Source: Thermus brockianus (GTDB lineage: Bacteria > Deinococcota > Deinococci > Deinococcales > Thermaceae). Taken from it: DNA of 64,000 nt. Both the position numbers and the translations under genes were made by a program. The stretch's first letter is position 1. Each line of letters starts with the position of its first letter. The stretch is from positions 434,001-498,000 of the forward strand of contig NZ_CP016312.1 of the NCBI RefSeq assembly GCF_001880325.1, read 5' to 3'. Shown piece after piece: positions 12,330-62,518 of the stretch. The notes beneath the pieces are model-generated. The model was not told the DNA's origin and did no database searches. It was given only the letters and a program-made list of their open reading frames with translations.

Positions 12330-13250
12330 CTACTCCCGGAACTCCCCCGCCACCTGCCCCAGGACCACCACCTCGCCCTTCTCCAGGGCGTAGCGCACCC
12401 TTTCCCCCCGGACGAAGCCCTTCTCGTCCCGGCTTTCCACGTTCCCGAAGAGGTAGGCGAAGCCCTCCTTCTCCCGCACCAAGGCCCTGTCCGCTTTGGT
12501 GGTGCGCCCGCCTTGGACGAACTCCACCCCAAATAGCCAAAGGGCCTCCTCGTCCAGAAGGTAGCGGAGGCGTTCCGCCTTGCCCGAAAGGGGCTTTTCC
12601 CCCTCCCGCTTAACCTCTAGGGGGCCTTCCAAAAGGGCCTCGCCGGTATCGTTTTGGTAGCGAAGCCTCCTCCCCTTTACCCGGGTGGCGCCCTCCTCCA
12701 CGTAGACCTCCCCGGGAACGGGGTTGGCCTCGAGGCGCCCCTCCTCCTCCAGGTACCGGGCGTTTCCCCCAGAAAGGGAAAGGGTCTCCTCGCTTCCCCG
12801 CTCCACCACGGCCAAGGGCCCCGAGGCCCGCACCGCTTCGCCCAGGCGCACCTCCACCCCCCTAGGGTCAAAGAGGACGAGGCGGAGGTACCTCTCCCCC
12901 TTCCCCTCCCCCGCCCGGCGCAGGCGAAGGAGGTGGGGAAGCCCCTCCCGGGTGAGGTCGGGGTTGTAGGCGGCCTCCACCCGGTCCCCCACCCGAAGCC
13001 CCTCCTCCACAGCGCTTCCCCCGTCGCGGAAAAAGGCCCGCCCCCCCACCGTCACCTGGGTCTCGCCCAACGCCTCCAACTCCCCCACCAGGAGGTCCCC
13101 GTAGTCGGCGTAGAAGAGGCTATCCTCCTCCCCGCTCACCCAGGCCACCACCTTCTTTTCCTTGCGGACGAGCTCCACCTCGGGGCGGAAGGCCTCCTGG
13201 GCCAGGGCGAGAAGGAGGGCCAGGGCGAGGCCCAGGAGGAAAGGGCGCAT
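12330..13250 (-). CDS. OstA/LptA-like exported protein (second copy)
   Basis: The 306-residue protein has a signal peptide (MRPFLLGLALALLLALAQ) and a beta-rich body. Its C-terminal half resembles OstA/LptA repeats: EVYVEEGATRVKGRRLRYQ, then GEALLEGPLEVKREGEK and RVRYALEKGEVVVLGQV, each 'write-out then cancel' strand pair being characteristic. In LPS bacteria such jelly-roll proteins form the periplasmic bridge for LPS. The ATG at 13250 shares its A with the upstream stop (TGATG). It is the third gene of the LptC-LptA-LptA-like set and ends against the convergent ATPase with no spacer. Confidence 0.75.
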   Translation of the reverse strand: MRPFLLGLALALLLALAQEAFRPEVELVRKEKKVVAWVSGEEDSLFYADYGDLLVGELEALGETQVTVGGRAFFRDGGSAVEEGLRVGDRVEAAYNPDLTREGLPHLLRLRRAGEGKGERYLRLVLFDPRGVEVRLGEAVRASGPLAVVERGSEETLSLSGGNARYLEEEGRLEANPVPGEVYVEEGATRVKGRRLRYQNDTGEALLEGPLEVKREGEKPLSGKAERLRYLLDEEALWLFGVEFVQGGRTTKADRALVREKEGFAYLFGNVESRDEKGFVRGERVRYALEKGEVVVLGQVAGEFRE

Positions 13251-14107
13251 CACTTCTCCCCGAGCTTCTTAAACTCCTCGGTGGGCAGCCGGAAGGCCCG
13301 GCCGTAGACCCGCACCTGGTGGCGGTTCACGTTGTGGAGGAGGGTGCTTCCGGAAAGCTTGAAGCCCTCCTTCTTGTTCTCGCTCAACGCCGGCCTTCCC
13401 AAGACGATGGCCTCCCCCGTGGTGTCGTCGTAGTAGAGGCTATCCCCCACCGTGACCAGGTCCCCGTCCACCAGGCGCACCCCCCCCGTGGCGATGAGGC
13501 GCTTGGGGCCGGTGAGGCTCCGCACCTCCTTGGCCCGGATGACCAGGTCCCCGTCCCGGCGCTTGCGGGTGAGGACCACCTCCTTGGCGTCCGTGAAAAC
13601 GGCGAGGCCCCTTTCCTCCTCGTAGTAGACGAAGCCCGCCCGCCCCTCCTGGTTGCCGCTTTTGAGGAGGGCGTTTTCGCTCGTGGAGGTGTCCGTGTCC
13701 ACCTGGAAGGCCATGCGGCCCGCCTCCACCTCCACGGGGTCCTCCCCGGGCTTGGGCTCCTGGCGCATGCGGGCAGGCCCCAAGAGCTCCCCCTCCCCCG
13801 TCTTCTCCCGGTAGACCAAGACGGGCCCCCGGGCCTCCACCCGGCCCCGGCGCACCACCACGCCCCCTTCAAAGCGGGCCTCCCTTTCCCCTTCCGCCTC
13901 CTGCATGGTCTTGCCCTTGGGGGCGGTGAGGGTGGCCTTGGGGGCCTGGATGGTGAGGTCCTTAACCCGCCCCCTCACCTCCCCCTCAAAGGTCCAGGGA
14001 CCATAGCGCAGGTCCCCCGAAAGCCTGCCCCCTTCCACCTGGATAACCCGCACATTGGAAGCCGCCAGCGCCAAACCGAGTAGGGCCAACACCCACGCTT
14101 TTTTCAC
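13250..14107 (-). CDS. OstA/LptA-like exported protein (first copy)
   Basis: The 285-residue protein begins with a short basic signal peptide (MKKAWVLALLGLALAAS). Repeated motifs such as ARFEGGVVVRRGRVEARGPVL and RLIATGGVRLVDGDLVTVGDSLYYDDTTGEA are the beta-jelly-roll units of the OstA N-terminal/LptA family. The start is a GTG at 14107 overlapping the LptC-like stop (GTGA) with AGGAGG upstream. Function is inferred as transport of an outer-membrane lipid or glycolipid across the periplasm, not shown for Thermus. Confidence 0.78.
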   Translation of the reverse strand: MKKAWVLALLGLALAASNVRVIQVEGGRLSGDLRYGPWTFEGEVRGRVKDLTIQAPKATLTAPKGKTMQEAEGEREARFEGGVVVRRGRVEARGPVLVYREKTGEGELLGPARMRQEPKPGEDPVEVEAGRMAFQVDTDTSTSENALLKSGNQEGRAGFVYYEEERGLAVFTDAKEVVLTRKRRDGDLVIRAKEVRSLTGPKRLIATGGVRLVDGDLVTVGDSLYYDDTTGEAIVLGRPALSENKKEGFKLSGSTLLHNVNRHQVRVYGRAFRLPTEEFKKLGEK

Positions 14108-14661
14108 GAGCTACCTCCTTCCACGGTGCAAGGACCAAAGCTTCCCCCGGCGGGGAAAGAGAACCGGGGGTTTTGCGCCTCGAGGCGCTCCAAGGCGAAG
14201 TCCGAGCGGAAAGCCTCCGCCTCGCCCCTTAGGTTTGGGGCCTCTATTCGCACCCAGGGGGCGAAGAAGCCCTCCTTCTGCCGGATGAGGACCTCCCCCT
14301 TGCCCGGGGCGGAAAGGGCCAGGCGGTAGCAACCCTTTAGGATCTCCACCTCGGCGTAGGGGGCGCGCAGGTTGTCCCCAGGCTCCACCACCACCTCGGG
14401 CGCCTTGAGCCTAAGGTCCAGACGCCCCTCCACGTACCGCTCCCCGAGAAGCCCCCCCCGGATGCGGAACACCCCCCCCTCCTCCACCATCTCCTCCGCC
14501 CGGAAGCGCCATTGCACCCCCTCCTCCTCGGGGAAGAGCCAAAACTCCACCCCCTGAAGGCGCACCCCCGGGACCGGGGGAGGCGCGGCAGGCCCGGGGC
14601 GCAGCCAAAGGAAGAGGAGAAGAGGGAGGAAAAGGGCGAGGGGGAGGAGGTACCGCGCCAC
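14104..14661 (-). CDS. LptC-like membrane-anchored protein
   Basis: The 185-residue protein has one N-terminal membrane anchor (MARYLLPLALFLPLLLFLWL) and a beta-rich periplasmic part beginning VRLQGVEFWLFPEEEGVQWRFRAEEM. That layout is typical of LptC and fits its place before two OstA-like genes. I chose GTG at 14661 because TAGGGT ends seven bases upstream and the membrane anchor follows at once; an upstream in-frame start at 14721 would add 20 polar residues and run into femX. Two cysteines (in KGCYRL and GPCTVE) could form a disulfide. Confidence 0.72.
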   Translation of the reverse strand: MARYLLPLALFLPLLLFLWLRPGPAAPPPVPGVRLQGVEFWLFPEEEGVQWRFRAEEMVEEGGVFRIRGGLLGERYVEGRLDLRLKAPEVVVEPGDNLRAPYAEVEILKGCYRLALSAPGKGEVLIRQKEGFFAPWVRIEAPNLRGEAEAFRSDFALERLEAQNPRFSFPAGGSFGPCTVEGGSS

Positions 14662-14707: not shown

Positions 14708-15730
14708 TCACCCCAGAACATCCCGCGGGTTTCCCCGCACCCTTAGGTTCACCCAGGTCTTGCGCAGGCGGAGCAGGGCTTTCAAAGGGCGGTAGAGGGG
14801 GGAAAGGGGCAGGGTGTAGGCGGGAAACTGCACCCTCTTCCCGCCAAATCCCTCCTTGAAGCGCCAAATCCCCTCGGCGTGGCTCCCTTCAGGGGTCCGG
14901 GGGACGCCCCACAGGTCGTAGATGCGGTAACCCTGGGCGATGCCGTGGCGGATGGCCATAAGGTGCATGCCCATGGGGGCCTTGGCCTCGGGGTGGTGGC
15001 GGCTACTTCCCCCGTAGAGGTAATCCACCTTTCCGGCAAATCCCACGAAAAGCCCCGCCGCCAAGGGCTCGCCCTCCTTGAGGGCCAAAGCGATGAAGGC
15101 TTCCCCCAAAGGCTGGTTCATCTCCCTTAGGACCGCCCGGTAGTACGCTTCCGAATGTTGCAAGAGCTTCGCCCGCCGGTTCGTTTCCTCAAAGAGGCGA
15201 AAGAACTCGGGGAAGGCCTCCTCCCCCGCCACGAGGAGTTCGGTGCGCTTCTGCGCCAGGCGGGCGTTGCGGCGGTGCATCTCCTTCATGCCCTTGAGGA
15301 GAGCCTCTTCCCCCTGGGTGAGGTCCAGCCAAAGGGAGTAGCCGGGCTGGATGGGTTCCTCCGGCAAAAGGCCGGCAAAGGCGGGGGGCGCCTCCTCCGC
15401 CGAAAGGCCCGCCTCCGGCTCCAGGACGAGGTGGGTGCCCCTCACCCCTTTGGCCAGGGCCCGGGCCACCTGGGGGAGGTCCACAAGGCGCCCTAGGGCC
15501 GGGCCCCTGGGGGCGTAGGCCAGATGCAGCCCACCGGGCAGGCGTTTTAGGAGGACCTGGGCCGCCCCCAAAAGCCTATCCCCCTCGTACACGGCAAAGC
15601 GCTTGGGCTCCCAGCCGGAAAGCCGCTTCACCTCCCCCCAGCCAAAGGACTGCAGGGCGCTCGTGATGGGGAGGCCCGAAACCAGCCGGTTCCAGGCCTC
15701 GGGTTCGTGAACCTCCGCTAGCTCGGCCAT
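14708..15730 (-). CDS. FemABX-family peptidoglycan interpeptide transferase
   Basis: The 340-residue protein shows two GNAT-like subdomains of the FemABX family, with LQSFGWGEVKRLSGWEPKRFAV at residues 26-47, GMKEMHRRNARLAQKR near 150 (the helical arm region) and GAYPMHLMAIRHGIAQGYRIYDLWGVP-like text near 255-280. FemX enzymes add amino acids from aminoacyl-tRNA to the muropeptide side chain. Thermus peptidoglycan is reported to carry a Gly-Gly bridge on L-ornithine, so a glycyl transferase is a reasonable inference. It starts three bases after the response regulator stop. Confidence 0.85.
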   Translation of the reverse strand: MAELAEVHEPEAWNRLVSGLPITSALQSFGWGEVKRLSGWEPKRFAVYEGDRLLGAAQVLLKRLPGGLHLAYAPRGPALGRLVDLPQVARALAKGVRGTHLVLEPEAGLSAEEAPPAFAGLLPEEPIQPGYSLWLDLTQGEEALLKGMKEMHRRNARLAQKRTELLVAGEEAFPEFFRLFEETNRRAKLLQHSEAYYRAVLREMNQPLGEAFIALALKEGEPLAAGLFVGFAGKVDYLYGGSSRHHPEAKAPMGMHLMAIRHGIAQGYRIYDLWGVPRTPEGSHAEGIWRFKEGFGGKRVQFPAYTLPLSPLYRPLKALLRLRKTWVNLRVRGNPRDVLG

Positions 15731-18069: not shown

Positions 18070-18507
18070 CTACCGCAGGCTAGCCCCGAGCACTACCCGG
18101 CTAAGGGAGTTGCCTCCCCCAAAGGGATAGAAGTACTCCCCGTCTAGGAAAACCCCCGTCCTGGGGTCTAGTAGCACCTCTACCCCAAGGGAAAGGTGAA
18201 GGCCAAGGTCGCTGCTCTGGGCAAACCACCCCGCAAGCCCCCCGCCAAAATAGGGCCTAATCCCCCGCAGGTCCCGGTCCACCTGGCCCAGATCGGGCTT
18301 GAAGAGGAGCTCGCCCCCTACCAGAAAGCTCGGCCCCCCAGGGAAGAGGTCGGCAAAGCCCCGGAAGGCCAGGTTCTGCTCCAAGGGGGCCTCGAGGCCA
18401 AACCCGAGCCCCGCCGGGGGCAAGGAAAGCCGGAAGGAAACCGCCCGTTGGGCAAAGGCCAAAGAACCTAACGCCAAGAGCAAAAGAAGCCCAATCGTCT
18501 TGCGCAT
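18070..18507 (-). CDS. Small exported, probably outer-membrane beta-barrel protein
   Basis: The 145-residue protein starts with a signal peptide (MRKTIGLLLLLALGSLAFAQ), then shows alternating hydrophobic strands rich in Gly and aromatic residues (FGLEAPLEQNLAFRGFADL; IRPYFGGGLAGWFA; GVFLDGEYFYPFGGG). It ends GASLR rather than in Phe. This pattern suggests an eight-strand barrel, but I recognise no family. The ATG at 18507 is set by AGGAGG eight bases upstream; a GTG at 18516 overlaps that site. It has its own terminator and lies divergent from the OmpH-like chaperone gene. Confidence 0.7.
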   Translation of the reverse strand: MRKTIGLLLLLALGSLAFAQRAVSFRLSLPPAGLGFGLEAPLEQNLAFRGFADLFPGGPSFLVGGELLFKPDLGQVDRDLRGIRPYFGGGLAGWFAQSSDLGLHLSLGVEVLLDPRTGVFLDGEYFYPFGGGNSLSRVVLGASLR

Positions 18508-18592
18508 GCCTATCACCTCCTAGGGCATCCTACCCCAGTAGCCCTCAAGGGGAAAGGAAGCCTTCTCTCACCCTGGCCTAACCCAAAGGGGA

Positions 18593-18598
18593 TAGGCT
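18593..18598 (+). promoter_or_regulatory. -10 box of the OmpH-like gene
   Basis: TAGGCT ends seven bases before the ATG at 18606. Confidence 0.5.
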
Positions 18599-18605
18599 TT
18601 GACCC

Positions 18606-19097
18606 ATGAAACGGCTTCCCCTAGCGGCCCTTTTCCTGGCCCTCGGCGCCCTCGTTACCCCCATGCTGGCCCAGAACAGGAACGTGGCCACCCGCATCGG
18701 CTTCGTGGACGCCGATGCCCTGGTCCAGGCCCACCCCGACTACAAAAAGGTCCAGGACGTGCAGGCCCAGGCCAAAAAGGAGCTTTCCCCCTTAGAGGAA
18801 AAGCTCAAGCCCCTGGACCAGAAGATGCGTGCCGGGCAAGCCTCGGCCAAGGAGCGCCAGGACTACGACGCCCTCCTCAAGACCTACCAGGACACCCTTA
18901 AGAAATGGCAGGACCGGCAGAACCAGGTCCTCAAGCCCATCCTCGAGGACGTGGACGCCGCCATCGCCAAGGTGGCCAAGGCCCAGGGCTTCGCCGTGGT
19001 CATGAGCCGGCAGGTGGCGGCCCAGTCCGGCCTGGTGGTCTACGCCGACGAGGACACGGACCTCACCCAAGCAGTGATCCGGGAACTCAAGCGCTAG
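18606..19097 (+). CDS. OmpH/Skp-like periplasmic chaperone
   Basis: The 163-residue protein has a signal peptide (to about residue 22, VTPMLAQ), then the family opening RIGFVDADALVQAHPDYKKVQ, a long charged coiled coil of about 55 residues (EEKLKPLDQKMRAGQASAKERQDYD...) and the closing strand GFAVVMSRQVAAQSGLVVYADEDTDLT. Skp/OmpH proteins hold unfolded outer-membrane proteins in the periplasm. BamA and TamB elsewhere in the window would be its logical partners. It ends with a strong bidirectional terminator. Confidence 0.88.
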   Translation: MKRLPLAALFLALGALVTPMLAQNRNVATRIGFVDADALVQAHPDYKKVQDVQAQAKKELSPLEEKLKPLDQKMRAGQASAKERQDYDALLKTYQDTLKKWQDRQNQVLKPILEDVDAAIAKVAKAQGFAVVMSRQVAAQSGLVVYADEDTDLTQAVIRELKR

Positions 19098-23315: not shown

Positions 23316-26300
23316 CTACCACCGGTAAAGGGCGCCGATGCTAAAGCGCACACTCTCCCCACTTTCCATCCCCAGGGAAAGGCCCAAGGCAGGTGTCAGC
23401 TCATACCCTAGCTGAAAGGTCAGCGTTTGGTAAGTCCCTTCACCCACCGGGAAACGAGAGCTCAAGGAAACGGCTAACCGGTCCTGCCGGTACTGGGCAA
23501 ACACGCTTTGGGTCCCTCGCAGGTCCACTTCGTAGCCTAAAAACAAGTTGGGCATCACATATTTGCCCACCGAAAGGCGGGTGTCCTCTAACTGCCCACC
23601 CTGGAAAAGAGGCGTACGGATCTGAAACTGATCTAGGCCCAGAACCCGCGCAAGCTCCCGTTCCAGCTGACCCACCAGCAGGCTTTCCAAGGCGGCACTT
23701 AAAATAGCTTGCGGTAAGACATCCAAAACCTGGCCAAGATCCTTGGTGCCCAGGATTAAAAGCGAATAAGCCTCTACCTCGGGTAACTCAGGTTCTGTGG
23801 TTAACTTGGGCTCCAAGCGGAGCTTTATCCGGCCGTTCTCTCGGAAAAAGCTGCCCTCAGCTTTCAGGTGCAGGGTATAGCCGCGCGCCTCCCCAGTGGC
23901 CTGGAGAGTGAACTCGGGCAAAATACCTCGGCTAGGGGTAAAGCGTATCGCGCTACCCTCAGGTAGCACGTTGAAAAGCACGTCCCGCAGGCGGAAACTC
24001 CCCCTAAGGGGACGAGCCTCCCCTGAGAGGTACGGATCCTGGTAAGAGCCGCCCAAATAGAGCTCTCCGCCTACCTCACCTTGAACCAAGCTCTCCTGGA
24101 TAAGGACCCCCTTCTCAGCGTAAAGGCGAATGTTTTCAAACACCAGGGGAAGAGGCTCTGCGGGAGCTGCTTCCTGTGGTTCTCTGCCTTGCTCAGCACC
24201 CGATGTGAAAGCTAGCCAAGCACGCAAAACCTCGGCGTTGGCCGTTAAGTGATAAGTTCCCCCTTCCTGGTACAAAAAGAAGCCCTTCACGTCCAAAAGA
24301 CCTTCCTGCAAGTAGAGGCGAGGATAACTTAGATTCAATCGGCCATAGCCCGCAAGCCGCAAGGGGAAAAGGGTCCCCTGGGCTTCTAGTCCCCCCAGGC
24401 GAACCTCCACCAAGCCCGTGGGGTAGCGGAAGACCACCTCGGCCGGGGTGGCCTCTTTGAGGCCGGGAAGGGAAACCTCCCCCTTGGCGCTCACCCGGAA
24501 GTCTTCCAGCCGGCCCTCGAGGCCAAGCCGGGCCCGCCCGGGGAAGGGCGCCGTTAGGGTGAGTTCCCCCTCCGCCCTGGCCCCCCCGTTCAGGGAAAGG
24601 AGCCCTTCGGGGAGGTACCCCGCCACCGGGCCCAGGCGGAAGCGGAAGTCCTGGAACCCCACCTGGAAGCTATCCCCCTTGAGCCGCAAGGCCAGGCTCC
24701 CCGACCCCTCAGGGCGGTAGGGCTTCAGGGCGGGCACCACCTGCAACACCGGGGTGAAGACCGTGTCCTTGAGGCTCAAGTAAAGGTCGCTTCCCTCCGG
24801 GCTCCAATACCCCCCACCCTCCCAGACACCCCGGCCCGTCAGGCGGAGGTGGTCCACCTCCACCCGCCCCCGGCCGAGGCGGAAGGCCGCCTGGCCCCTA
24901 AGCTCATCCCCCCCGCCCCTAAAGACGAGGCTTTCCCCCACCAAAACCCCTTCCCCCCGCAAGGGGTCGGCGAGGGGCAGCTTGAGCCGCACCGCCCCCG
25001 TCCAGTAGGCCTCCCCCTCCAACGGCCCCGCCACCGCGGCGAGGAGGAGGTGGAGGGGGAAGCCCCGGGGGCTTGCCCGAAGGTCCAGCCTCCCGCCCTC
25101 CAGGGCCACCTGGAAGGGGGTTTCCCCGAGGCGCCCTTCCCCAGCGAAGCCCGCCCCCTGGAGGCGCCCCTGGAGGCTTAGGGGAAGGGATCTGTCCGCC
25201 ACCCTTACCTCCCCGGAAACCGCCCCTTCCGCCCTCCCCCCTTTCAGGACGAGGCTTCCCGAAACCCGCCCCTGGAGGTACGGGGCATAGCGGCCCAAGA
25301 AGTCCTCCAAGGCGGTTTCCTTCAGGGTGAGGTCCAAGGCCAAGGGCAGGAGGCTCCCTTGGGCCTCCACCCGGCCTACGCCCCCCACCAACACCCCTTC
25401 TACCCCGTACCCCTCCCCGTACACCCGGCCCTGGAAGCGGCTCTCCAAGGGGGGAAGGGGGAGGTCCACCCTAAGCTCCCCTCCAGGTGGGTAGGCGAGC
25501 TCCCCTTGGAGGTAGGGCCCCTTGGCCCAAAGCCGGGCGGTAAGGAGCTTCCCCTCAAGCCGCACCTCCTCCTCCCCCGCCCGGTAGGCCAGGCGGTAGG
25601 CCCCGTCCAGCCCCACCTCCCCCTCCAGGCGCCCCGCCCCCGCCGCCCACCAGGCCCATGCGGGGTGCTCCCCTTCCACGGCCACCTTCTCCCCTTCCCC
25701 CCTAAGCCGCAAGGCGAAGCCCCGGAGGTCCAGGCCCAGGCTCCCCGCCACCCGTCCCCCCTGGTAGACCAAAGCCCCTTCCCCTTCCGGGCTCGTGAGG
25801 GTGAGGGCGAGGGCCCTGAGGTCAAGCCGCCCCTCCAAAGGAAGGCCGAGCCCCGGCACCCGGTAGGCGAGCCGGACCCCTTCCCCTTCCCCCCTGGCCT
25901 CGAGGCCGCCCGGGAGGAGCCCTTCCCAGAAGGTCCCCTCCCCCGAGGCCTCCCGGGCGGCGAGGTCCACGCTAAGCCCGCCCAGGAGCAGCCTCGGCCA
26001 GGCGAAGGCCACCTCCTCCCCCAAGACCTCCCCCCGGAGCCGGGGAAGCCCCTCCCCTTCCAGGGCAAGCCTCCCCTCCCGGAAGACCACCTCCCCCCGC
26101 CAGGCCCCGTCCCAGGCCACCTCCCCCTCCAGGTCCCCCTTGAGGCCAAGGCGGAGGCCCCCTTCCCCATAGACCCCTTCCGCCTCCGCCTCCCGGCCAA
26201 AGGCGGCGAGGCGGAGGCTTAGGGCCACCCGCCGCCAGGGGCCCTTCACCTCCCCCAAAAGGCGCAAGGGCCCAAGGGCGAAGTCCGAAAGGGCAAGGAC

Positions 26301-29300
26301 CAGCCCCTCCGGCCCCACCTCCCCCCTCACCCCTGCCCCGGAAAGGGCCACCCTAAAGCCCGAAAGCCCCTCCAGGCCCAGGCCCACCTCCCCGTAGGCG
26401 TACCGCCCCGAAAGCCACTTCCCGGGGTAGACCCCCTCGGCCCAGAGCTCCCCAAGCCCCCGGGGCAGAGGCCCCCCGTAGCGGTAGGCCAGGCGGAAGG
26501 GGAAGAGGTCTAGCCTCCCCCTTAGGGGGAGGCCCTCCCCCAGGAGGTCAAAGCCCCCCTCCCGCCCCAGGAAGCGCACCCCGCCGTAGGGGCTTTCCAC
26601 CCTCCCCTCCCCGGACCAGGCCCCCAGGTAGCCCTCCGCCGCCCGGTAGCGGTAGGCCCCCTGGAAGGCGAGCCCCCGGTAGGCCAGGTCCAGGGCGAAG
26701 GCGGCCTCGAGGCCCGGGCAGGCCCCCAAGGGCCCGGGCAGGCAGAAGGTGCCCTCCCCCTTCCCCGCCAAAGCCCCTTCACCCCAAAGGGCAAACCGCC
26801 CCGCCCCCAGGTCCGCCTCGGCCAAAAGGGCCCCGTCGGCAAGAGGGTAGCGGACCCGGACAAGCCCCGAAAGCCCCTTCCCGTACCGGGCCTCCCCCGA
26901 AACCCTGGGCCCCTGGAAGCGGAGGGAAAGCCCCTCCGCCCCATACGTCCCCCCAAAGCCCTCCCCGTAGGCCTCCCCCTGGAACTCCGCCCGCAGGGGG
27001 GAAAGCCAGGCCCGCCCCGCCACCGTCCCCTCGGGCCTTTCCAGGCGGAAGGCCACCGGGCCCTGCCAAGGGCCCTCCCCTTGGGCTTCAAGCCGGGCGG
27101 GGAGGCCAAAGGGGGTGAGGTCCAGGTCGGCCCATAGGGAAAGCCTCTCCCCCTCCAAGCGAAGCCTTAGGCCCGGGGCTTCCGACGCCAAGCGAAGCCC
27201 CGCCAGGGAAAACCCCTCATGGGCGAAGCGGAAGGGAAGGCTTTCCCCCTCGCCCACCAGGGCCCCCTCCCCTTCCAGCCTGGGCCCAAGGAGCGTGCCC
27301 CCAAGCCGGGCCTCGGCCCCAAGGCGCCCCCGCCCCACCTCTAGGGCGTAGCGGAGAGCCCCGTCCACCGCTAGCCCCCGCACCTCCCCCTCCGCCCTAA
27401 GGCTTCCGGGAAGCCCCTCCCCCTGGAGGCGGAAGCGCAAGGGGCCCTCCCCTTCCGCCCAAAGGGCGAGGCCCCGCCCCTCGGCCCGAAGCCAACCCCT
27501 ATACCCCTCCTTCCCATAGCCCAGGTCCGCCTCCAGGGCGAAGCCCGCCACCTCCCCCTTCCCCTTGGCCGAAAGGCGCCACCCATCCCCGTAAACCGCC
27601 TCCAGGGCCAAGGGGGCTTGCCAGCGGACCTCCACCCTACCCCCTTCCCCCGAAAGCCCTAGGGGGCCTTCCTGGACCAGGTACTGGCGGCTTGTTAGCC
27701 ACCCCTCCCCCCGGTAGCGGGCGCCCTCCCAGGTGAGGGCAAGCTCCCCTTGGGCAAAGGAAGAGGCGTGGCGCAAAACCCCTTCCCCCCTAAGCGCCAA
27801 GAGGTCCAGGGTGGCCTCTAAGGCCGTCTCCCCCAAGGCCTCCCCTTCGTAAACCCCCCGCACCCTCAAGGCCCCAAAGGGCCCGGAAAGGCTTAGGGAA
27901 AGGCCCGGGTAGCGGAAGGAAGCCTCCACCCCTTTTTGGTCCAGCCGCCCCCCGCCCCCAAGGGCCCCAAGCCCCCTCAACGCCCCCCCCTCGGGCCGCC
28001 AGGCGAGGCCCACCTCCCGCTCGGGAAGCCAAAGGCGTACCTCCCCCCCGCGGTAGTCCAGGGCCAGGAGTTCCCCCCCGTAGGAAAGCGCCGCCTCCGC
28101 CTCCCCCCTCCCGTCCAAGCCCACCTCCCCCTCCGCCCGCCCGCTCAGGGCCACCCCCAAGGCCTCCGCCAAGGGGGCCACCTCCTCCAGGCGGAAGCGC
28201 ACCCTTTCCCCCTCCAGGGCCACCTCCCCCCCGGCATAGCGGAGGGTGAGGGCGAGGGCCTTCCCGTACCCCCCCTGGAAGGCGAAGGGAAGCCCCGCAA
28301 GCCGGCCTTCCCCTTCCCAGGCTAAGGAAACCCCCTCCCCCCGGAAGCGCCCCGCCACCTCCCCCTCCCGGCCCAGGGCCCGGAAGGGGAGGGCGAAGCT
28401 TCCCCGGTAGGTAAGCCCCTCCCCCTCGAGGCGCACGGGGCCCTCCAGGGCGTAGCGCACCAAGCCCTCCCGCCACACCCGGCCCCGGAAGGGCAAGGGG
28501 TCCAGGTAGGGCAGCCGGGCCTCCCCCAGCACCTCCAAGGCCAAGGCCGCCCAGGGACCCTCCCCCGAGGCCTCCCCCAGGACCTCCACCCCGCCCTGGC
28601 GGTAGTGGGCCCTCAGGGCGAGGCGGTAGCCTTCGGGGGAAACCTCTCCCTCCCCCTCCAGGTGGGGCCCGAGGAGGCGCACCCGGGCCCGGAGCATCTC
28701 CTCCCCTTGGATAAGGGCCTCCCCGTAAGGGCTTTCCAGGCGGAGCCTTCCCCCCCGGCTTCCCCAGGTCCCCGTGGCCCTTAGGGGAAGCCCCCATGGG
28801 GAGAGGTCCAGCCCCTCCGCCTGGAGGAGCAAGCGGAGCCCCTCCTCGTACCCCCCAAGGACCCGAAGCCCGGGCGCCCCGCCCCCAAGCCTAAAGGCCG
28901 CCCCCCGCCCCACCACGCCCAGGACAAGCCCCCCCTTGGGGAAGGAGGCCTCCCCCCGGTAGGCCAAAGCCAGGAGGTCCACCCTCCCCTCAAGCCTCCC
29001 CGCCCCCAGGAAGGGCACCTCCCCCTGGCCCTGGAGGCGGAGCCCTTTCCAAGGACCTTCCCCCGCCACCTCCCCGTAGGGGGTGGTGAGGCGTACCCTG
29101 CCCCCCTCCAGGTCCCCCCGGGCCCAAAGCCGCCCCTCCACCCCCCGGTAGCGGAAGGGGAGGTCCAGGCGGAAGGGGTACCGGCCCCGAAGCCCCACCT
29201 CCCCCACCCCCGGCACCCGGAGGGCCTCCCGGTCCAGGGTGAAGGCGAGGGGCGGAAGGCGGAGCCCCTCGGGGATGGGGGGAAGGAGCCTGCCCGCGAG

Positions 29301-31328
29301 GCGCAGGGTGGGGTAGACCTCCCCTTCCCCTTCCACATAGCCCCTTAGGCTCAGGGAAAGCCGCTTTCCCTCCCCAAGGAGCCTCCCCTCCACCCCGTAG
29401 GCCCGCACCTCGGCATAGCCCCTATAGCCCCCCTCGTAGGCCAGGTCCGCCCGCAAGGCCAAGGGCCCCAAAGCCGCCTCCCCCTTCAGGCTCAGGGCCT
29501 CCTTGTAAGCCAAGGTGAGGTCCCCGGCCCTTAGCCTTAGGCCGGGACCGGGGTCGTAGGCCCCGGAAAAGGGCACCTCCCCGAGGGGTGTCCGGACCCT
29601 TCCGGAAAGCTCCGCCCCCAAGCCCCTGAGGGAAGCGGCGGCCTCCAGGTAGCGCCCCTCGGCCCGAAGCCGCCCGGAGAGGGCCCCTTCCCGGTAGAGG
29701 GCATCCCCCCAGAGCCGCACCTCGTCCAGGGCCCGCACGGGAAGGCCCCTTAGGCGCAAGGAGAAAACCCCACCCCGGTACGCCCCCTCCCCGTAGGGGC
29801 TAAAGAAGCGGAAGCCCGAGGCCTCCTGCGCCACCGCCACGGGGAAGGCGGCGTAGGGGGAGGCGTAGCGGAGGGTGGCGGAAAGCCTGCCCCGCTGGAG
29901 GCGGCCTTCCCCCTCCAGGTCCCCCACCGCCAGGGGAGTGGGGGTGAGGCGGAGGGCGAGGTCGTCCCACGTCCCCGAAAGGGCCAAGGGGCCAAGCCGC
30001 CCGGAAACCCTCGCCCCCTCCCCCCGCACCTCCCCCGAGAGGTCCAAGGGGGCGAAAAGGGGAAGGGCCACCCCTGGGCTTCGCACCCCCACCCGGTAGC
30101 GGCCCCCTTCCAGGGCGAAGGCCACCTCCGCCTTCCCCTCCAAAGGCCTCGGCCAGGCCGCAACCCCGCCGCCCCGCAGCCGCCCCCCCTCCCCCGCCAG
30201 GCGGAGCCGGCTTCCTAAGGTATCGGCGAAGGTGGCCCGGTATGCGCTTCCCTCTAGGGCGAAGCCCAGGCGGTAGGTGCGGTCCAAAAGCCGCCCCTCC
30301 GCCTCCGCCTCCAGGGAGAAGACCCGGTCAAAGCCAAGCCGCCCCCAATGGCGGAAAGGCTCCCCCAAGAACCGCCCTTCCCCCTGGAAGCCGCCCTTGA
30401 GCTTCAGCTCCGCCCAGCCCTCCCCCGCCAGGGCCAGCCTCCCCTCCCCCTCCACGGGCAGGGATAGGCCAAAGTGGCGCGCCAGGGCGGGAAGCTGGGG
30501 CCTCCCCTCCAGCCGGAAGCGGTAGCGCTCCCCCTTGAGGTCCACCTCCGCCACCGCCTCTAGGGGGCCCTCGAGGCCCACCCCCTTTAGGTGCGCCTCC
30601 ACCCGGTCCTCCCGAAGGCGAATGGGGCCCTCCACCCGGGTGAGGGCAAAGCCCACGAGCTCCACCACCCCGCCCGCCACCTCGGCCTCCCCCGCCATGC
30701 CCCCGGGGCCAAGCCGGAAAACCCCCGAAAGCCTCCCCCCCTTAAGCCCCGGGTAGAAGAAGGAAAGCCCGGAAACCTCGCCCCCAAAGCGCACCTCCCA
30801 GGCGGAAAGGTCGGGCGCAAGCCCCCTCGCCTCTCCCTGGAAGCTCCCCCCGGGAAGCCTCACCAGGAAGCGGTAGGGGTTTTCCCCGGCGAGGGTGAGG
30901 CGCAAGGGGGGGAGGAAAAGCCTCTTCCCTTGGGGAAGTTCCACCTCGGTATCCTCCAGGACCAGGCTCCGGAAGACCACCTTGAGGGCGGGCGGTGGCC
31001 CCGGCTTCTCGGGGATGAGGGCCTCCCAGGTGGGCTTTAGGCGGGCCCCCTGGAGGCGGAGGCTTAGGGGAAGCTCCCGGCGCCAAAGCCCCAGGAGGTC
31101 GTAGCGGAGGCCCACCGCCTCCGCCTCCAGGGAAAGCCCCTCCCCCTTAAGCCGCACCCCCCGCAGCCTAAGGCCCAGGAGGAGGTGCCCCCGCACCTCC
31201 CCCACCTCCCCCTGGAAGCCCGCCAGGACCAAGCCCCGCTCCACCGCCCCCTTGAGGAGGGGGGGCCAGGCGAGGAGGCCCAAGAGGCCAAGGAACCCCA
31301 GGAGAAGGAAGAGAAGCCCCCGCCGCAT
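23316..31328 (-). CDS. tamB: Giant TamB/YtfN-like (DUF490) translocation-assembly protein
   Basis: At 2670 residues this is about twice the usual TamB length. An N-terminal membrane anchor (MRRGLLFLLLGFLGLLGLLAW) is followed by more than 2000 residues of repetitive beta strands of the form 'YEGEARLRGEGLPLRLEG', the long groove architecture of AsmA-like/TamB lipid-transfer proteins. The last 350 residues are the conserved TamB domain: ILGTKDLGQVLDVL, LSVGKYVMPNLFLGYEVDLR and a terminal aromatic (GALYRW). The start at 31328 has TATGCT seven bases upstream; in-frame starts at 31340 and 31364 are less likely. The 3' kilobase is visibly less GC-rich than the rest. Likely function: inner-to-outer membrane lipid transport or outer-membrane assembly. 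Confidence 0.9.
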   Translation of the reverse strand: MRRGLLFLLLGFLGLLGLLAWPPLLKGAVERGLVLAGFQGEVGEVRGHLLLGLRLRGVRLKGEGLSLEAEAVGLRYDLLGLWRRELPLSLRLQGARLKPTWEALIPEKPGPPPALKVVFRSLVLEDTEVELPQGKRLFLPPLRLTLAGENPYRFLVRLPGGSFQGEARGLAPDLSAWEVRFGGEVSGLSFFYPGLKGGRLSGVFRLGPGGMAGEAEVAGGVVELVGFALTRVEGPIRLREDRVEAHLKGVGLEGPLEAVAEVDLKGERYRFRLEGRPQLPALARHFGLSLPVEGEGRLALAGEGWAELKLKGGFQGEGRFLGEPFRHWGRLGFDRVFSLEAEAEGRLLDRTYRLGFALEGSAYRATFADTLGSRLRLAGEGGRLRGGGVAAWPRPLEGKAEVAFALEGGRYRVGVRSPGVALPLFAPLDLSGEVRGEGARVSGRLGPLALSGTWDDLALRLTPTPLAVGDLEGEGRLQRGRLSATLRYASPYAAFPVAVAQEASGFRFFSPYGEGAYRGGVFSLRLRGLPVRALDEVRLWGDALYREGALSGRLRAEGRYLEAAASLRGLGAELSGRVRTPLGEVPFSGAYDPGPGLRLRAGDLTLAYKEALSLKGEAALGPLALRADLAYEGGYRGYAEVRAYGVEGRLLGEGKRLSLSLRGYVEGEGEVYPTLRLAGRLLPPIPEGLRLPPLAFTLDREALRVPGVGEVGLRGRYPFRLDLPFRYRGVEGRLWARGDLEGGRVRLTTPYGEVAGEGPWKGLRLQGQGEVPFLGAGRLEGRVDLLALAYRGEASFPKGGLVLGVVGRGAAFRLGGGAPGLRVLGGYEEGLRLLLQAEGLDLSPWGLPLRATGTWGSRGGRLRLESPYGEALIQGEEMLRARVRLLGPHLEGEGEVSPEGYRLALRAHYRQGGVEVLGEASGEGPWAALALEVLGEARLPYLDPLPFRGRVWREGLVRYALEGPVRLEGEGLTYRGSFALPFRALGREGEVAGRFRGEGVSLAWEGEGRLAGLPFAFQGGYGKALALTLRYAGGEVALEGERVRFRLEEVAPLAEALGVALSGRAEGEVGLDGRGEAEAALSYGGELLALDYRGGEVRLWLPEREVGLAWRPEGGALRGLGALGGGGRLDQKGVEASFRYPGLSLSLSGPFGALRVRGVYEGEALGETALEATLDLLALRGEGVLRHASSFAQGELALTWEGARYRGEGWLTSRQYLVQEGPLGLSGEGGRVEVRWQAPLALEAVYGDGWRLSAKGKGEVAGFALEADLGYGKEGYRGWLRAEGRGLALWAEGEGPLRFRLQGEGLPGSLRAEGEVRGLAVDGALRYALEVGRGRLGAEARLGGTLLGPRLEGEGALVGEGESLPFRFAHEGFSLAGLRLASEAPGLRLRLEGERLSLWADLDLTPFGLPARLEAQGEGPWQGPVAFRLERPEGTVAGRAWLSPLRAEFQGEAYGEGFGGTYGAEGLSLRFQGPRVSGEARYGKGLSGLVRVRYPLADGALLAEADLGAGRFALWGEGALAGKGEGTFCLPGPLGACPGLEAAFALDLAYRGLAFQGAYRYRAAEGYLGAWSGEGRVESPYGGVRFLGREGGFDLLGEGLPLRGRLDLFPFRLAYRYGGPLPRGLGELWAEGVYPGKWLSGRYAYGEVGLGLEGLSGFRVALSGAGVRGEVGPEGLVLALSDFALGPLRLLGEVKGPWRRVALSLRLAAFGREAEAEGVYGEGGLRLGLKGDLEGEVAWDGAWRGEVVFREGRLALEGEGLPRLRGEVLGEEVAFAWPRLLLGGLSVDLAAREASGEGTFWEGLLPGGLEARGEGEGVRLAYRVPGLGLPLEGRLDLRALALTLTSPEGEGALVYQGGRVAGSLGLDLRGFALRLRGEGEKVAVEGEHPAWAWWAAGAGRLEGEVGLDGAYRLAYRAGEEEVRLEGKLLTARLWAKGPYLQGELAYPPGGELRVDLPLPPLESRFQGRVYGEGYGVEGVLVGGVGRVEAQGSLLPLALDLTLKETALEDFLGRYAPYLQGRVSGSLVLKGGRAEGAVSGEVRVADRSLPLSLQGRLQGAGFAGEGRLGETPFQVALEGGRLDLRASPRGFPLHLLLAAVAGPLEGEAYWTGAVRLKLPLADPLRGEGVLVGESLVFRGGGDELRGQAAFRLGRGRVEVDHLRLTGRGVWEGGGYWSPEGSDLYLSLKDTVFTPVLQVVPALKPYRPEGSGSLALRLKGDSFQVGFQDFRFRLGPVAGYLPEGLLSLNGGARAEGELTLTAPFPGRARLGLEGRLEDFRVSAKGEVSLPGLKEATPAEVVFRYPTGLVEVRLGGLEAQGTLFPLRLAGYGRLNLSYPRLYLQEGLLDVKGFFLYQEGGTYHLTANAEVLRAWLAFTSGAEQGREPQEAAPAEPLPLVFENIRLYAEKGVLIQESLVQGEVGGELYLGGSYQDPYLSGEARPLRGSFRLRDVLFNVLPEGSAIRFTPSRGILPEFTLQATGEARGYTLHLKAEGSFFRENGRIKLRLEPKLTTEPELPEVEAYSLLILGTKDLGQVLDVLPQAILSAALESLLVGQLERELARVLGLDQFQIRTPLFQGGQLEDTRLSVGKYVMPNLFLGYEVDLRGTQSVFAQYRQDRLAVSLSSRFPVGEGTYQTLTFQLGYELTPALGLSLGMESGESVRFSIGALYRW

Positions 31329-31335
31329 CTCCCTA

Positions 31336-31341
31336 AGCATA
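31336..31341 (-). promoter_or_regulatory. -10 box of the tamB-like gene
   Basis: TATGCT ends seven bases before ATG 31328 on the minus strand; no Shine-Dalgarno. Confidence 0.6.
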
Positions 31342-31375
31342 GGGAAGGGAGATGAAAGCGGCATGGCATGCCCCG

Positions 31376-39867: not shown

Positions 39868-41428
39868 ATGATGAGGGTTAGAGGCATCGCCACACCCGTT
39901 ACCCTGGTGGTGCTCATGGTGGTGTTCGTGAGCCTCCTGGCGGCCACGAGCTACATGGCCTTGGGCGCCCTCAAGGGAAGCGCCACGGAGCGCGGGGCAT
40001 ACCAGGCCTTCCTGGTGGCGGAAAGCGCCCTGGACGCCTTTCCCCTCCTGGCCAAGTCCGCCGGGTGCGGCGGCGCCGCCCCCGCCTCGTACAGCCTCCC
40101 CACCGGGGGAAGCGCCGCCAGCGCCACCTACGTCTACACCAGCGGCGTCACGGAGGTAAACGGCCAGAAGAGGCTTCCCGCCTCGGGGGGGACCCTCGAG
40201 GTCCAGGCGGTGGCGGAGTGGGGCGGGGCCAAGGCCCGGGTGGCCAAGCGCTTCCAGGTGGGGTGCGGCATCGCCGGGGCCGTGCCCGCGGCCTTGACCT
40301 CGAGGCCCAGGGTGGAAGTTAGTGGCAATGCCCAGGTCATCGGCCAGGACTTCACGAACGCCACCGGCCTCCTCGAGGTGAGCCTCACGGGCACCACCTC
40401 CCTTGTCCTGCAAAGCGTGTTGACCCAGCAGGGCACCTTCACCCTTCCGGTGCAGGACGCAAGCCTCATCCCCGTGGGGGGCTACGTGCAGATCAGCACG
40501 GGCGGCACCCCCCAAGACCTACCGCGTGGAAGGCAAGAGCGGGAACACCCTCACCCTAAAGCCCCTCTTCACCCCTAGCCTGACCGATGTTATCCCCGCA
40601 TCCGCCCCAGTCCAGCTCGTGCAGTACGGGGTAAAGTCCTACACAAGCCCCAACACGCTCTACCTCGCCGACGCCCGGGGACTTGTGGTGGGTCAGGCGG
40701 TTCGGGTAGGGAGTGCCCAAGCTACGGTCACCAGCGTGGACCCGGCCACCGGGCAGGTCACCGTGAAGGACTGGTCCGGCACACCCCCCACCAGCATCCC
40801 TGAGGGCACCCCCCTGGTGGCCCAAGTGGTGGGCGCGGCCAGCAACCTTAGCATTGATACCAGCGGTCAAGGACAAGTACTGTATGGTTCCTTGCCCAAT
40901 AGCCCTCTGGTTCCCAGCGATCCCAACGAGCTCTTTCTGCGCGTCTTCGGCATGACGAAGGCGGATTTTTTAAGCCTCTACCCCCCCACGAGCGCCAGCA
41001 ACTTTAGCGGCACCCTCAGCAACTGGGAACTCAAGGTGGTCCAGGGGCCCCTGAACCTCACGGGCAGCTCCCGGCTCTGCGGCCAAGGGATCCTGGTGGT
41101 CATCGGCAACCTCACGGTAAACGGCTCCTGCGATAGCGGCTTCCAAGGGCTCATCTACGTGGCCGGCGACTACGACCAGCAAGGCAACGCCGTCCTCACC
41201 GGAAGCGTGGTGGTGGAGGGCGTGGCGAACCTTCAGGCCTGCAACGGTAACGAGTGCTGGACCCAGATCGCTGGCACCGACCAAGGCAACGGGAAAGGCA
41301 GCGGGAAAGGCAGCGGGCAAGACGGCGGGAAAATCACCTACGATCCCCTGGTCATGCAGAGGCTCCGCATGGCCACGCAGGGAGCGGTGGTCATCCGGGC
41401 ACTTGCGGGAAGCTGGAGGCGCCTGTGA
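39868..41428 (+). pseudogene. comZ: ComZ-like pilus/competence protein, interrupted by a frame change
   Basis: The N terminus (RGIATPVTLVVLMVVFVSLLAATSYM) is one membrane helix as in PilX/ComZ-type minor pilins, followed by a large Gly/Ser/Thr-rich exported region. From 39868 the frame runs into unrelated residues after GGYVQISTGGTP. At the C6 run 40508-40513 the other frame continues TYRVEGKSGNTLTLKP to a stop at 41428. Removing one C, or adding two, restores a protein of about 520 residues. ComZ is a DNA-binding minor pilin encoded with the pilA genes in T. thermophilus. The end overlaps the first minor pilin start (GTGA). Confidence 0.75.
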
Positions 41429-41844
41429 GGCGTGGGTTTAGCCTGCTGGAACTCCTGGTGGTCATCGCCATCCTGGGGGTCCTCTTGGCCCTGGTCCCGC
41501 CCAGTTACCTGCGCTGGCGGGCCCAAGCCCAGGTGGAGGAAGCAGCCCGCTCCCTGGCCTGGACCCTGCAGCAAGCCCGGGCCGAGGCCAAGCGCACCAA
41601 CACCGCCCAAACGGTGAGCATCACCGCCAACGGCTGGACGTACAGGGGAAGCACCGTTACCTTGCAGAACATCCAGATCAGCTCCAACTACACGGGCTTT
41701 CCCCCGCTTAGCGTCACCTTCAATCCCCCCTACGGCACCACGGACGCGCCCTTGAAGAAGCTCACCCTCACCCACCAGCGCTTTAGCGACCTACAGCGCT
41801 CCGTTCACGTGGTGGGCGTCATCGGAAAGGTGATCGTGCGATGA
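41425..41844 (+). CDS. Minor pilin / pseudopilin (GspH/FimT-like), PilA1-type
   Basis: The 139-residue prepilin has the type III leader MRRG^FSLLELLVVIAILGVLLAL, with Gly before the cleavage site and Glu at +5. The charged helix continues QAQVEEAARSLAWTLQQARAEAKRTNTAQTV, as in GspH/FimT. The start is a GTG at 41425 overlapping the ComZ-like stop by four bases, and its own stop overlaps the next ATG (ATGA). PilD would process it; it likely primes pilus assembly at the tip. Confidence 0.9.
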   Translation: MRRGFSLLELLVVIAILGVLLALVPPSYLRWRAQAQVEEAARSLAWTLQQARAEAKRTNTAQTVSITANGWTYRGSTVTLQNIQISSNYTGFPPLSVTFNPPYGTTDAPLKKLTLTHQRFSDLQRSVHVVGVIGKVIVR

Positions 41845-42263
41845 AAAAAGGCTTCTCCCTTCTGGAAATCCTGGTGGCCCTGGCCATCTTCGGCCTCCTA
41901 AGCGGCCTGGTGCTTTCCTCCCTGCTCGGGCTATTCCGCATCAACCGGAGCGGCAACCTCGAGGCCCGGGCGGTGGTGGTGGCCAAGGACTTCCTGGAGC
42001 GGGCCGTGAAGGAGGGCACCTACGCCAACAACACCTTGACCCTGCCCAAACCGAGCCAAACGGGCGGCTTCACCTGGCAGGTGGCGGCGGCGGGAAGGCC
42101 AAACGTTAACCAAAGCCTCTCCTTCCAAACCTGCGCCGCCACCACCAGCGCCTACACCTGTAACGTTTCCTGCTCGGGAAGCGCCTGCGCGCTGGTGGCC
42201 GTGCGGCTTACCCTAACGGCGGGGGGCAAAAGCTACGTTTTCTACCGGGAGTGGGCGCCATGA
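41841..42263 (+). CDS. Minor pilin / pseudopilin (PilV/GspI-like), PilA2-type
   Basis: The 140-residue prepilin has leader MKKG^FSLLEILVALAIFGLLSGLVLS with Glu at +5. Four cysteines occur in FQTCAATTSAYTCNVSCSGSACALV, probably two disulfides in the globular head. ATGA overlaps at both ends tie it to the flanking minor pilins. Confidence 0.9.
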   Translation: MKKGFSLLEILVALAIFGLLSGLVLSSLLGLFRINRSGNLEARAVVVAKDFLERAVKEGTYANNTLTLPKPSQTGGFTWQVAAAGRPNVNQSLSFQTCAATTSAYTCNVSCSGSACALVAVRLTLTAGGKSYVFYREWAP

Positions 42264-42874
42264 GAAAGGGTTTCACCCTCTTGGAAATCCTGGTGGCCTT
42301 GGCCGTTTTGGGGATCTTCACCGCCCTTCTTCTCGCCTTCACCCAAGGCACCCTTGCCAGCAACCGCACCGCCCGCCTCCAGGCCCAGCTTCTGGAGGAG
42401 CTAAAAGACGCCGCCGGGTACGTGGCGGATAACCTCCAAGGGGCCCAAACCCTCCTAGCTTCCGCCACCCTAAACGGCAATACCTGCGCCCCGCCCGGTT
42501 GCCTGGCGGCCCTGGTGCCCGAGGCCTCTGGGGGAAGTTGCGCCCTCCGCGCCTACAAGCTGGAGGCCCGAAGCGCCATCCCCGACGACTACAAAGCCAA
42601 AGACCCCTGGGCCGACGCCAACACCCGGATGCTCCGGGAGTACCGCCTAAGCGGGCTCTCCTGCGCCGCCACCGCCTACAGCAACGCCCAGCCCTACGTG
42701 GTCCTGGACCTGGTGGACAACGACCCCACCCTCCCCTTCTTCCAGCTTTCTCCAAGCCCCCTCTCCGTCACCCTGAATATCCGCCTGAAGGCCAAGGACG
42801 GAAGCCGCGTCATCTACGTCCCCTCCTCCACCCAGACCTACACCCTCCGGGTCTACCCCCGGAACGCCCCCTAG
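42260..42874 (+). CDS. Minor pilin / pseudopilin (PilW/GspJ-like), PilA3-type
   Basis: The 204-residue prepilin has leader MRKG^FTLLEILVALAVLGIFTALLLAF with Glu at +5. Its size and the LLEELKDAAGYVADNLQGAQTL helix fit the GspJ/PilW class. Four cysteines are present. ATG at 42260 overlaps the preceding stop; a GTG at 42251 is less consistent with the short basic leaders of the set. It is the last gene before the pilA4 promoter region. Confidence 0.9.
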   Translation: MRKGFTLLEILVALAVLGIFTALLLAFTQGTLASNRTARLQAQLLEELKDAAGYVADNLQGAQTLLASATLNGNTCAPPGCLAALVPEASGGSCALRAYKLEARSAIPDDYKAKDPWADANTRMLREYRLSGLSCAATAYSNAQPYVVLDLVDNDPTLPFFQLSPSPLSVTLNIRLKAKDGSRVIYVPSSTQTYTLRVYPRNAP

Positions 42875-43107
42875 GTTTTCACACCGCTTTCACACCCTTG
42901 GGTCATCTTAAGGGTGTCCCCCCAAAAGGGGGGGGTTGACAAGGCGAAAGGGCCCCGCCAAGAATAGGGCCTGAAAGGGGGTGAGACAAGGGTTAAGAGG
43001 AAGGAAAAAAGGTTAGAAGGGTACATGGGTTGAAAGGGCTTTTCGGCAACAGGCACTCATGGCCGCGCGATACATGAAGGCGCGGAAACCCTGAAGGAGG
43101 AAGAAGC
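42875..43107 (+). promoter_or_regulatory. pilA4 promoter and leader region
   Basis: 233 bases without a gene. TTTCACACC occurs twice (42877-42885 and 42888-42896), 11 bases apart. ACACCCTT/AAGGGTGT (42892-42917) is an inverted repeat that overlaps the second copy. CCCCCC-AAAA-GGGGGG (about 42918-42933) is a hairpin touching the -35. TTGACA (42936-42941), an 18-base spacer and AAGAAT (42960-42965) form the promoter. The transcript would have a purine-rich leader of about 135 bases with GGAGGAAG before the ATG. Confidence 0.65.
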
Positions 43108-43455
43108 ATGCGGAACGCGAAAGGTTTCACCCTGATTGAGCTCCTGATCGTCATCGCCATCATCGCCATCCTGGCTGCGGTGCTGATCCCCAACGTCCTG
43201 AACGCTCGTAGGCGGGCTATTGAAACCTCCGCGCAGGCTTACGCCCGCTCCGTGGCCACCTGGATTGCCGCTGCGGACACGGCTGGTGCCAACCTGTCCG
43301 GCCTAACCAGCTGCACTGACCAGAATTTGCAGAACGAAGGCGCACCCGCCTCCTTGCCGAACGGGGTGCAGAGCTGCGAAATCAACTACTCCAACGGCCG
43401 CTACACGGTCACGGTCACCACCGTCACGAACAAGACCTTCACCGCAGTTTATTAA
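43108..43455 (+). CDS. pilA4: Major type IV pilin PilA4
   Basis: The 115-residue prepilin has leader MRNAKG^FTLIELLIVIAIIAILAAVLIPNVLNARRRA, the textbook type IV pilin N terminus. The short head has two cysteines (LTSCTDQ and VQSCEIN), the disulfide seen in Thermus PilA4. It has its own promoter, a long leader, a good Shine-Dalgarno and an intrinsic terminator, in contrast to the overlapping minor pilin genes upstream; this fits high expression of the fibre subunit. Pili serve twitching motility, adhesion and, in Thermus, DNA uptake. Confidence 0.96.
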   Translation: MRNAKGFTLIELLIVIAIIAILAAVLIPNVLNARRRAIETSAQAYARSVATWIAAADTAGANLSGLTSCTDQNLQNEGAPASLPNGVQSCEINYSNGRYTVTVTTVTNKTFTAVY

Positions 43456-61909: not shown

Positions 61910-62518
61910 ATGTACGTGGCCATCGCCGGCAACATCGGAAGCGGCAAGAGCTCCCTCACCGCCCTCCTCGCCGAAACCTTCGGGCTCAAGCCCGTGTACG
62001 AGGCGGTGAGCGAAAACCCCTACCTGGAGGACTTCTACCGGGACATGGGGGCCTACGCCTTCCCCTCCCAGGTCTTCTTCCTGGCCAGGCGGGTGCGGCA
62101 ACACCTCCTGGAGGTGAACGGAAGCCCCCGCGTGGTCCAGGACCGCACCCTCTACGAGGACGCCTTCGTCTTCGCGCAGAACCTCTACCTTGAAGGCCAC
62201 CTCTCCGAGCGGGACTGGCGGACCTACCTGGAGCTTTTCCACGGCGTGGCCCCCGCCCTGCGCAAGCCCGACCTCCTCATCTACCTCCGGGCAAGCCTCC
62301 CCACCTTAAGGAGGCGCATCGCCAAGCGGGGCCGCCCCTATGAGCGGGGCATCCCCGACGGCTACCTCCTCGCCCTCAACCGCCTTTACGAGGAGCTCGT
62401 GGCCTCTTGGGAACTCTCCCCGGTCCACGTGGTGGACGGGGACCAGGTGGACTTCGTGGAGGATGAGGGGGCCAAGGAGGCCCTCCTCAGCGCCCTAAGC
62501 CCCCTCTTGCGGCCATGA
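61910..62518 (+). CDS. Deoxynucleoside kinase (dNK family), second copy
   Basis: The 202-residue paralogue has P-loop GNIGSGKSS, SENPYLEDFYRDMGAYAFPSQVFFL, the canonical QDRTLYEDAFVFA with the catalytic-site DR, and lid RIAKRGRPYERGIP. ATG at 61910 lies one base after the stop of the first copy; its stop overlaps the murE start (ATGA). The intact DR motif contrasts with the altered one in the first copy. Confidence 0.92.
   Translation: MYVAIAGNIGSGKSSLTALLAETFGLKPVYEAVSENPYLEDFYRDMGAYAFPSQVFFLARRVRQHLLEVNGSPRVVQDRTLYEDAFVFAQNLYLEGHLSERDWRTYLELFHGVAPALRKPDLLIYLRASLPTLRRRIAKRGRPYERGIPDGYLLALNRLYEELVASWELSPVHVVDGDQVDFVEDEGAKEALLSALSPLLRP

Follow-up and report, generated by a model that had tools for sequence, protein, structure and literature searches.

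Lpt exporters that persist in bacteria without LPS are already in the literature, and Thermus is among them. Retention of Lpt after LPS loss has been described as a repeated event (PMC11784454), and PMC10353723 refers to Putker et al. 2015 on the Lpt orthologues of Thermus thermophilus. Borrelia burgdorferi, an LPS-free diderm, has a full Lpt set including LptD and a proposed glycolipid cargo, and PMC10353723 suggests a glycolipid cargo for LPS-free diderms. For atypical diderms, Deinococcus-Thermus included, PMC8871954 states that lptD has never been found, and from this supposed absence argues for a reduced Lpt system in the phylum, one that may function with no outer membrane.

We analysed a window of 64,000 nucleotides from Thermus brockianus (contig NZ_CP016312.1, positions 434,001 to 498,000) that contains an lptC-lptA1-lptA2 unit (Table 1). 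As in the Lpt system of Escherichia coli (LptB2FG-C-A-DE), lptC directly precedes lptA, the predicted folds of LptC and LptA match, the B, F, G, C, A and putative D parts are all present, and LptD has four cysteines that include a C-terminal CC pair. Unlike E. coli, Thermus has no lipid A genes, encodes two LptA-like proteins of which the first appears to be double-length, places lptB outside the lptCA unit, and carries its N-terminal LptD cysteines as CxxC; sequence identity between the two systems is near noise. Borrelia belongs to another phylum and has a single LptA, with the gene order lptC-lptA-lptB rather than the C-A-A order of Thermus.

Table 1. Positions of the Lpt-like genes and of other features in the window and at further loci
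Feature	Sequence	Position	Strand	Description
lptC-lptA1-lptA2 unit	window	12330-14661	-	
lptA2	window	12330-13253	-	second exported LptA/OstA-like protein; additional N-terminal domain that other families lack
LptA2 N-terminal segment	window	12870-13253	-	weak DUF5666 likeness; possibly a spacer or partner-binding domain
lptA1	window	13250-14107	-	exported, LptA/OstA-like; roughly double the length of E. coli LptA
lptC	window	14104-14661	-	inner-membrane-anchored beta-taco protein (predicted); ORF runs on to 14721
FemAB-family gene	window	14708-15730	-	peptidoglycan cross-bridge type; immediately upstream of lptC
OmpH/Skp-like gene	window	18606-19097		periplasmic chaperone; a small exported protein of unknown family is encoded divergently to it (region 18070-19097)
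TamB-domain ORF	window	23316-31364	-	2682 aa, C-terminal TamB domain; very long candidate phospholipid bridge
Prepilin-like run	window	39868-43455	+	N-terminal methylation-type leaders; likely a type IV pilin cluster (sequence reading)
Mur ligase gene	window	62515-63955	+	split over three ORFs/frames, which carry the N-terminal, the middle and the C-terminal Mur ligase domain
lptF-lptG	C1	1293-1295 kb		adjacent pair
Third LptF/G homologue	C1	172 kb		
Small exported protein	L046	3045-3530	+	immediately precedes LptD2; possibly a partner of the LptE kind
LptD2	L046	3549-5171	+	540-aa protein
OstA-like exported protein	L046	7226-7855	+	second Lpt-like line
Single LptF/G	L046	7852-8958	+	directly after the OstA-like gene

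Architecture and identity of the lptC-lptA1-lptA2 unit

Neighbouring genes of the unit overlap by 4 bases each. The likely true start of lptC is the GTG at 14661, where its homologues begin and where the sequence-only reading had also ended the unit. LptC opens with a single hydrophobic helix, and LptA1 and LptA2 both open with signal-peptide-like segments. The overlaps and these N-terminal segments bear out the reading of one unit encoding a membrane-anchored LptC-like protein and two exported OstA-like proteins. We sampled 20 loci, which cover five families of the phylum Deinococcota. Every one of them has LptC and then LptA1, with LptA2 next in 19; at the remaining locus the contig stops there. 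LptA1 is encoded in 106 of 111 Deinococcota genomes. In several Thermaceae, as in one neighbouring family, a FemAB-family gene likewise adjoins the trio.

Both LptA-like proteins exceed the cut-off of 20.4 bits for PF03968 (LptA/LptD_N), LptA1 with 36.5 bits (E 6e-9) and LptA2 with 23.1 bits. The LptA2 profile also matches solved LptA (E 2.7e-7), and the two proteins are paralogues (hhalign E 2e-22). A single-sequence phmmer search of LptA1 against the PDB gave nothing useful. PDB LptA chains align to two separate stretches of the LptA1 profile, 34-129 and 133-241, and LptA1 therefore looks double-length; the match of its halves to each other (hhalign E 6e-6) lends this modest support. The N-terminal insert of LptA2 is present in Thermaceae-type rows of the alignment, and Trueperaceae-type rows have a gap in its place.

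For LptC there is no match in Pfam, and its placement at the sequence level failed, with no significant hhalign result against the single E. coli sequence. We made AlphaFold2 models of LptC and LptA1 from alignments of 42-43 relatives. The LptC model (mean pLDDT 90) consists of one long helix followed by beta structure, and its top Foldseek matches in the PDB are the LptC chains of LptB2FGC (6mit_C, E 7e-6; 6mjp_C, E 1e-5). Against the LptC structure 3my2, Foldseek gave an rmsd of 2.1 Å and a TM-score by target of 0.79. The LptA1 model (mean pLDDT 93) has a signal helix and is otherwise all beta, and its PDB matches at a Foldseek probability of at least 0.99 are solely LptD, LptA, LptC and LptH chains. 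Predicted fold and synteny together identify LptC. The initial assignment as LptC-LptA-LptA is upheld by PF03968, the fold matches and the conserved synteny. Predictions lacking the LptA/LptC jelly roll would have refuted it, and the models of LptC and LptA1 both match that fold; the suggested profile searches succeeded for the two LptA-like proteins and failed for LptC, which Pfam does not recognise.

The inner-membrane transporter and a putative outer-membrane gate

The other components sought elsewhere in the genome, LptB, LptF, LptG and LptD, were all found, the last only by profile-profile comparison. One LptB locus scores 332 bits, above the TIGR04406 cut-off of 240, and other ABC ATPases reach 176 bits at most. 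The members of the adjacent lptF-lptG pair score 170 and 266 bits against a cut-off of 27.9. In the T. brockianus assembly lptF is frame-broken; it is open in the nearest relatives.

Directly downstream of lptG are two ORFs in different frames, whose products are an N-terminal domain and a barrel-like protein that ends in a CC motif. The nearest relatives have a single open gene of ~820 aa or more here, LptD1. It occurs in 104 of the 111 genomes and in 20/20 sampled loci, and adjoins lptFG wherever lptFG is recognisable (18/20). The Pfam LptD barrel models PF04453 and PF19838 have no match in this genome, nor does the LptD1 profile match the PDB or hhalign give a significant result against the single E. 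coli sequence. The Pfam miss is a limit of the models, which miss a cyanobacterial control as well. When compared with an alignment of 15 proteobacterial LptDs built from plasmid-collection records, LptD1 matched with Prob 99.4 and E 5e-21 across 594 columns; with the alignment reversed E was 0.013, and five column shuffles gave E 0.4-0.75.

Four cysteines, arranged as CxxC ... CCWA, are invariant across 19 LptD1 rows and may form disulfides. The first motif, YxTPCxxCGQ, resembles alphaproteobacterial YTACxPC/YSPCELC, and the second, DRCCWAL, resembles gammaproteobacterial YESCCWAVR. The order lptF-lptG-lptD is shared with alphaproteobacteria such as Sinorhizobium meliloti (L173), whose LptD has the motif YT(A/P)CxxC; unlike Thermus, that locus belongs to an LPS producer, and most of the collected alphaproteobacterial LptDs have no C-terminal CC pair. 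Like cyanobacterial LptD (DUF3769; PMC4365693), LptD1 is divergent and falls outside Pfam's LptD model, and 2 of the 19 Deinococcota LptD1 sequences have a weak, at most suggestive DUF3769 match (E 0.06).

By sequence homology, LptD1 is the probable LptD of this phylum, and as such contradicts the statement in PMC8871954. The identification looks new within the literature searched, which consisted mostly of papers outside subscription. An Lpt system with no exit gate, the impression left by Pfam, was rejected in view of the profile-profile match. Decay was also considered as the cause of the broken lptF and lptD1 frames and was rejected, since both genes are open in the nearest relatives and the Mur ligase gene of the window is broken in the same way. 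The breaks instead point to assembly indels: a Mur ligase gene is normally essential, so the assembly probably carries such errors.

A second, compact Lpt-like line

LptD2 occurs in 61 of the 111 genomes, nearly all of them Thermaceae and one neighbouring family. Its cysteines form a TPCxC motif that follows the N-terminal domain and, towards the end of the protein, a CC pair, and its N-terminal region matches proteobacterial LptD (hhalign E 7e-7; reversed, 0.86). The accompanying exported protein was at one stage labelled LptC2. This label was dropped because the protein matches LptA2 (hhalign E 5e-7) better than LptC (0.007), and we refer to it as OstA-like. In several sister genera the genes of the second line constitute a single operon with a DegT-type aminotransferase after it; this neighbour was established at one locus directly and at other sister-genus loci by sequence. 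In Thermus, an O-antigen ligase (Wzy_C) sits between the genes, with genes for a flippase and UDP-galactopyranose mutase in the vicinity. The second line resembles the Lpt cluster of Negativicutes and Halanaerobiales, which has a single LptF/G and OstA-domain proteins (PMC5007114); unlike that of Thermus, this cluster adjoins LPS genes, and the authors found no LptD there.

No second LptB in the genome passes the TIGR04406 cut-off, so the one LptB is probably shared. We tentatively suggest that Thermaceae and the neighbouring family may run two parallel Lpt exporters from one LptB, a standard line (C-A1-A2/F-G-D1) and a compact line (OstA-like protein, short LptD2 and single LptF/G). The compact line would serve a different surface glycolipid, and both would have outlived the loss of LPS. 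We found no published report of the second line in the literature searched, which under-represents subscription papers, and within these bounds it looks new.

Loss of LPS and retention of Lpt

No LPS gene adjoins the trio, as had been noted from the sequence, and neither LpxC nor LpxB has a match anywhere in the genome. LpxC is present in 61 of the 111 Deinococcota genomes. Within Thermaceae it occurs in 21/22 genomes of sister LPS-type genera, in 0/27 Thermus and in 0/1 of the nearest genus. Two other families have it in 4/4 and 35/39 genomes, and two more in 0/4 and 1/14. One LpxC locus also carries LpxA and an MsbA-like ABC exporter. The Lpt genes are about equally present on both sides: LptA1 and LptD1 occur in 48 and 46 of the 50 LpxC-negative genomes, and each in 58 of the 61 LpxC-positive ones, which indicates that LPS was lost and Lpt kept. 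The sample seems to contain no member of the genus Deinococcus. A control genome, Deinobacterium chartae, has PF03968 and LptF/G matches and no LpxC match.

The sequence-only reading had seen in the unit an ancestral form of the bridge, one that would predate LPS. An early-branching position of this diderm phylum and the absence of LPS genes from Thermus would fit that reading. However, LpxC is near-universal in the sister genera and found in most genomes of two other families, and one cluster unites LpxC, LpxA and an ABC exporter. We consider an origin before LPS very improbable. Since LpxC occurs in the sister genera and in other families, the LPS-free state of Thermus is most simply explained by loss, and an LPS-bearing ancestor of the phylum has been argued for previously (PMC5007114).

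Cargo of the bridge

Lipid A-based LPS does not qualify as the cargo, given a genome with no LpxC or LpxB. Because these genes are absent while Lpt is kept, another lipid or glycolipid is the best-supported cargo. T. thermophilus HB8 is reported to be without LPS and to contain Galf-containing N-acyl-glucosamine glycolipids (PMC3398001), in line with the initial expectation of glycolipids instead of typical LPS in Thermus. We think it probable that the trio forms the periplasmic bridge within a complete Lpt exporter, which outlasted the loss of lipid A synthesis in Thermus, with Thermus glycolipids as the best inference for its cargo. Homology and fold prediction provide the identity of LptC and LptA, the presence of LptB, LptF and LptG, the homology of LptD and the retention without LpxC. 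From these parts, LptB2FG would extract the lipid from the inner membrane. Membrane-anchored LptC, LptA1 and LptA2 would then assemble into one continuous open beta-taco groove for the acyl chains, and a disulfide-bonded LptD1, encoded beside lptFG, would deliver the lipid to the outer leaflet of the cell's outer membrane. A candidate cargo is a glycolipid such as Galf-Galp-(N-acyl)GlcN-Glc-diacylglycerol, which has three acyl chains and could stand in for LPS. Counting against a glycolipid bridge, the galactofuranose and ligase genes adjoin the second Lpt line and not the trio, the frames of lptD1 and lptF are broken in this assembly, and LptD1 is missed by the Pfam models.

The genes around the second line raise the question of whether the bridge carries an LPS-like glycan-lipid, that is, a polysaccharide on an anchor other than lipid A, served by the second line or by both. 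The neighbouring Wzy_C ligase, polysaccharide flippase and UDP-galactopyranose mutase in Thermus, and the DegT aminotransferase that follows the line in sister genera, speak for such a molecule, but these ligase, flippase and mutase genes are not near the trio, the ligase could act on protein or cell-wall glycans, and no such lipid is described for Thermus in the literature searched. We regard this cargo as unlikely. Ordinary phospholipids, whose acyl chains could fit a beta-taco groove and which might supply the lipid that an outer leaflet without LPS needs, are a quite improbable cargo: the TamB-like protein in the window is a more likely phospholipid route, as TamB-like proteins are now linked to phospholipid transport (PMC10665443), and an LptD-type gate to the outer leaflet exceeds the needs of bulk phospholipid flow. 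Extremely improbable, in our estimate, is the movement of surface lipoproteins, a role that has been proposed for LptD in Borrelia, which has no LPS. One Borrelia study favours it and a second disagrees, according to the summary in PMC11784454, and diderm Terrabacteria appear not to put lipoproteins in the outer membrane (PMC11784454). Outer-membrane lipoprotein partners, the class to which LptE belongs, are likewise described as not conserved in Terrabacteria (PMC11784454).

Implications

The finding of LptD1 removes, for Deinococcota, the argument for a reduced Lpt system made in PMC8871954. The co-occurrence of LpxC-positive and LpxC-negative relatives in one family provides a natural comparison of cargo. 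The role of Lpt in LPS-free diderms becomes testable in T. thermophilus, a laboratory species that is amenable to genetics and whose glycolipid structures are known; its Lpt route appears to be complete, up to and including the gate in the outer membrane.
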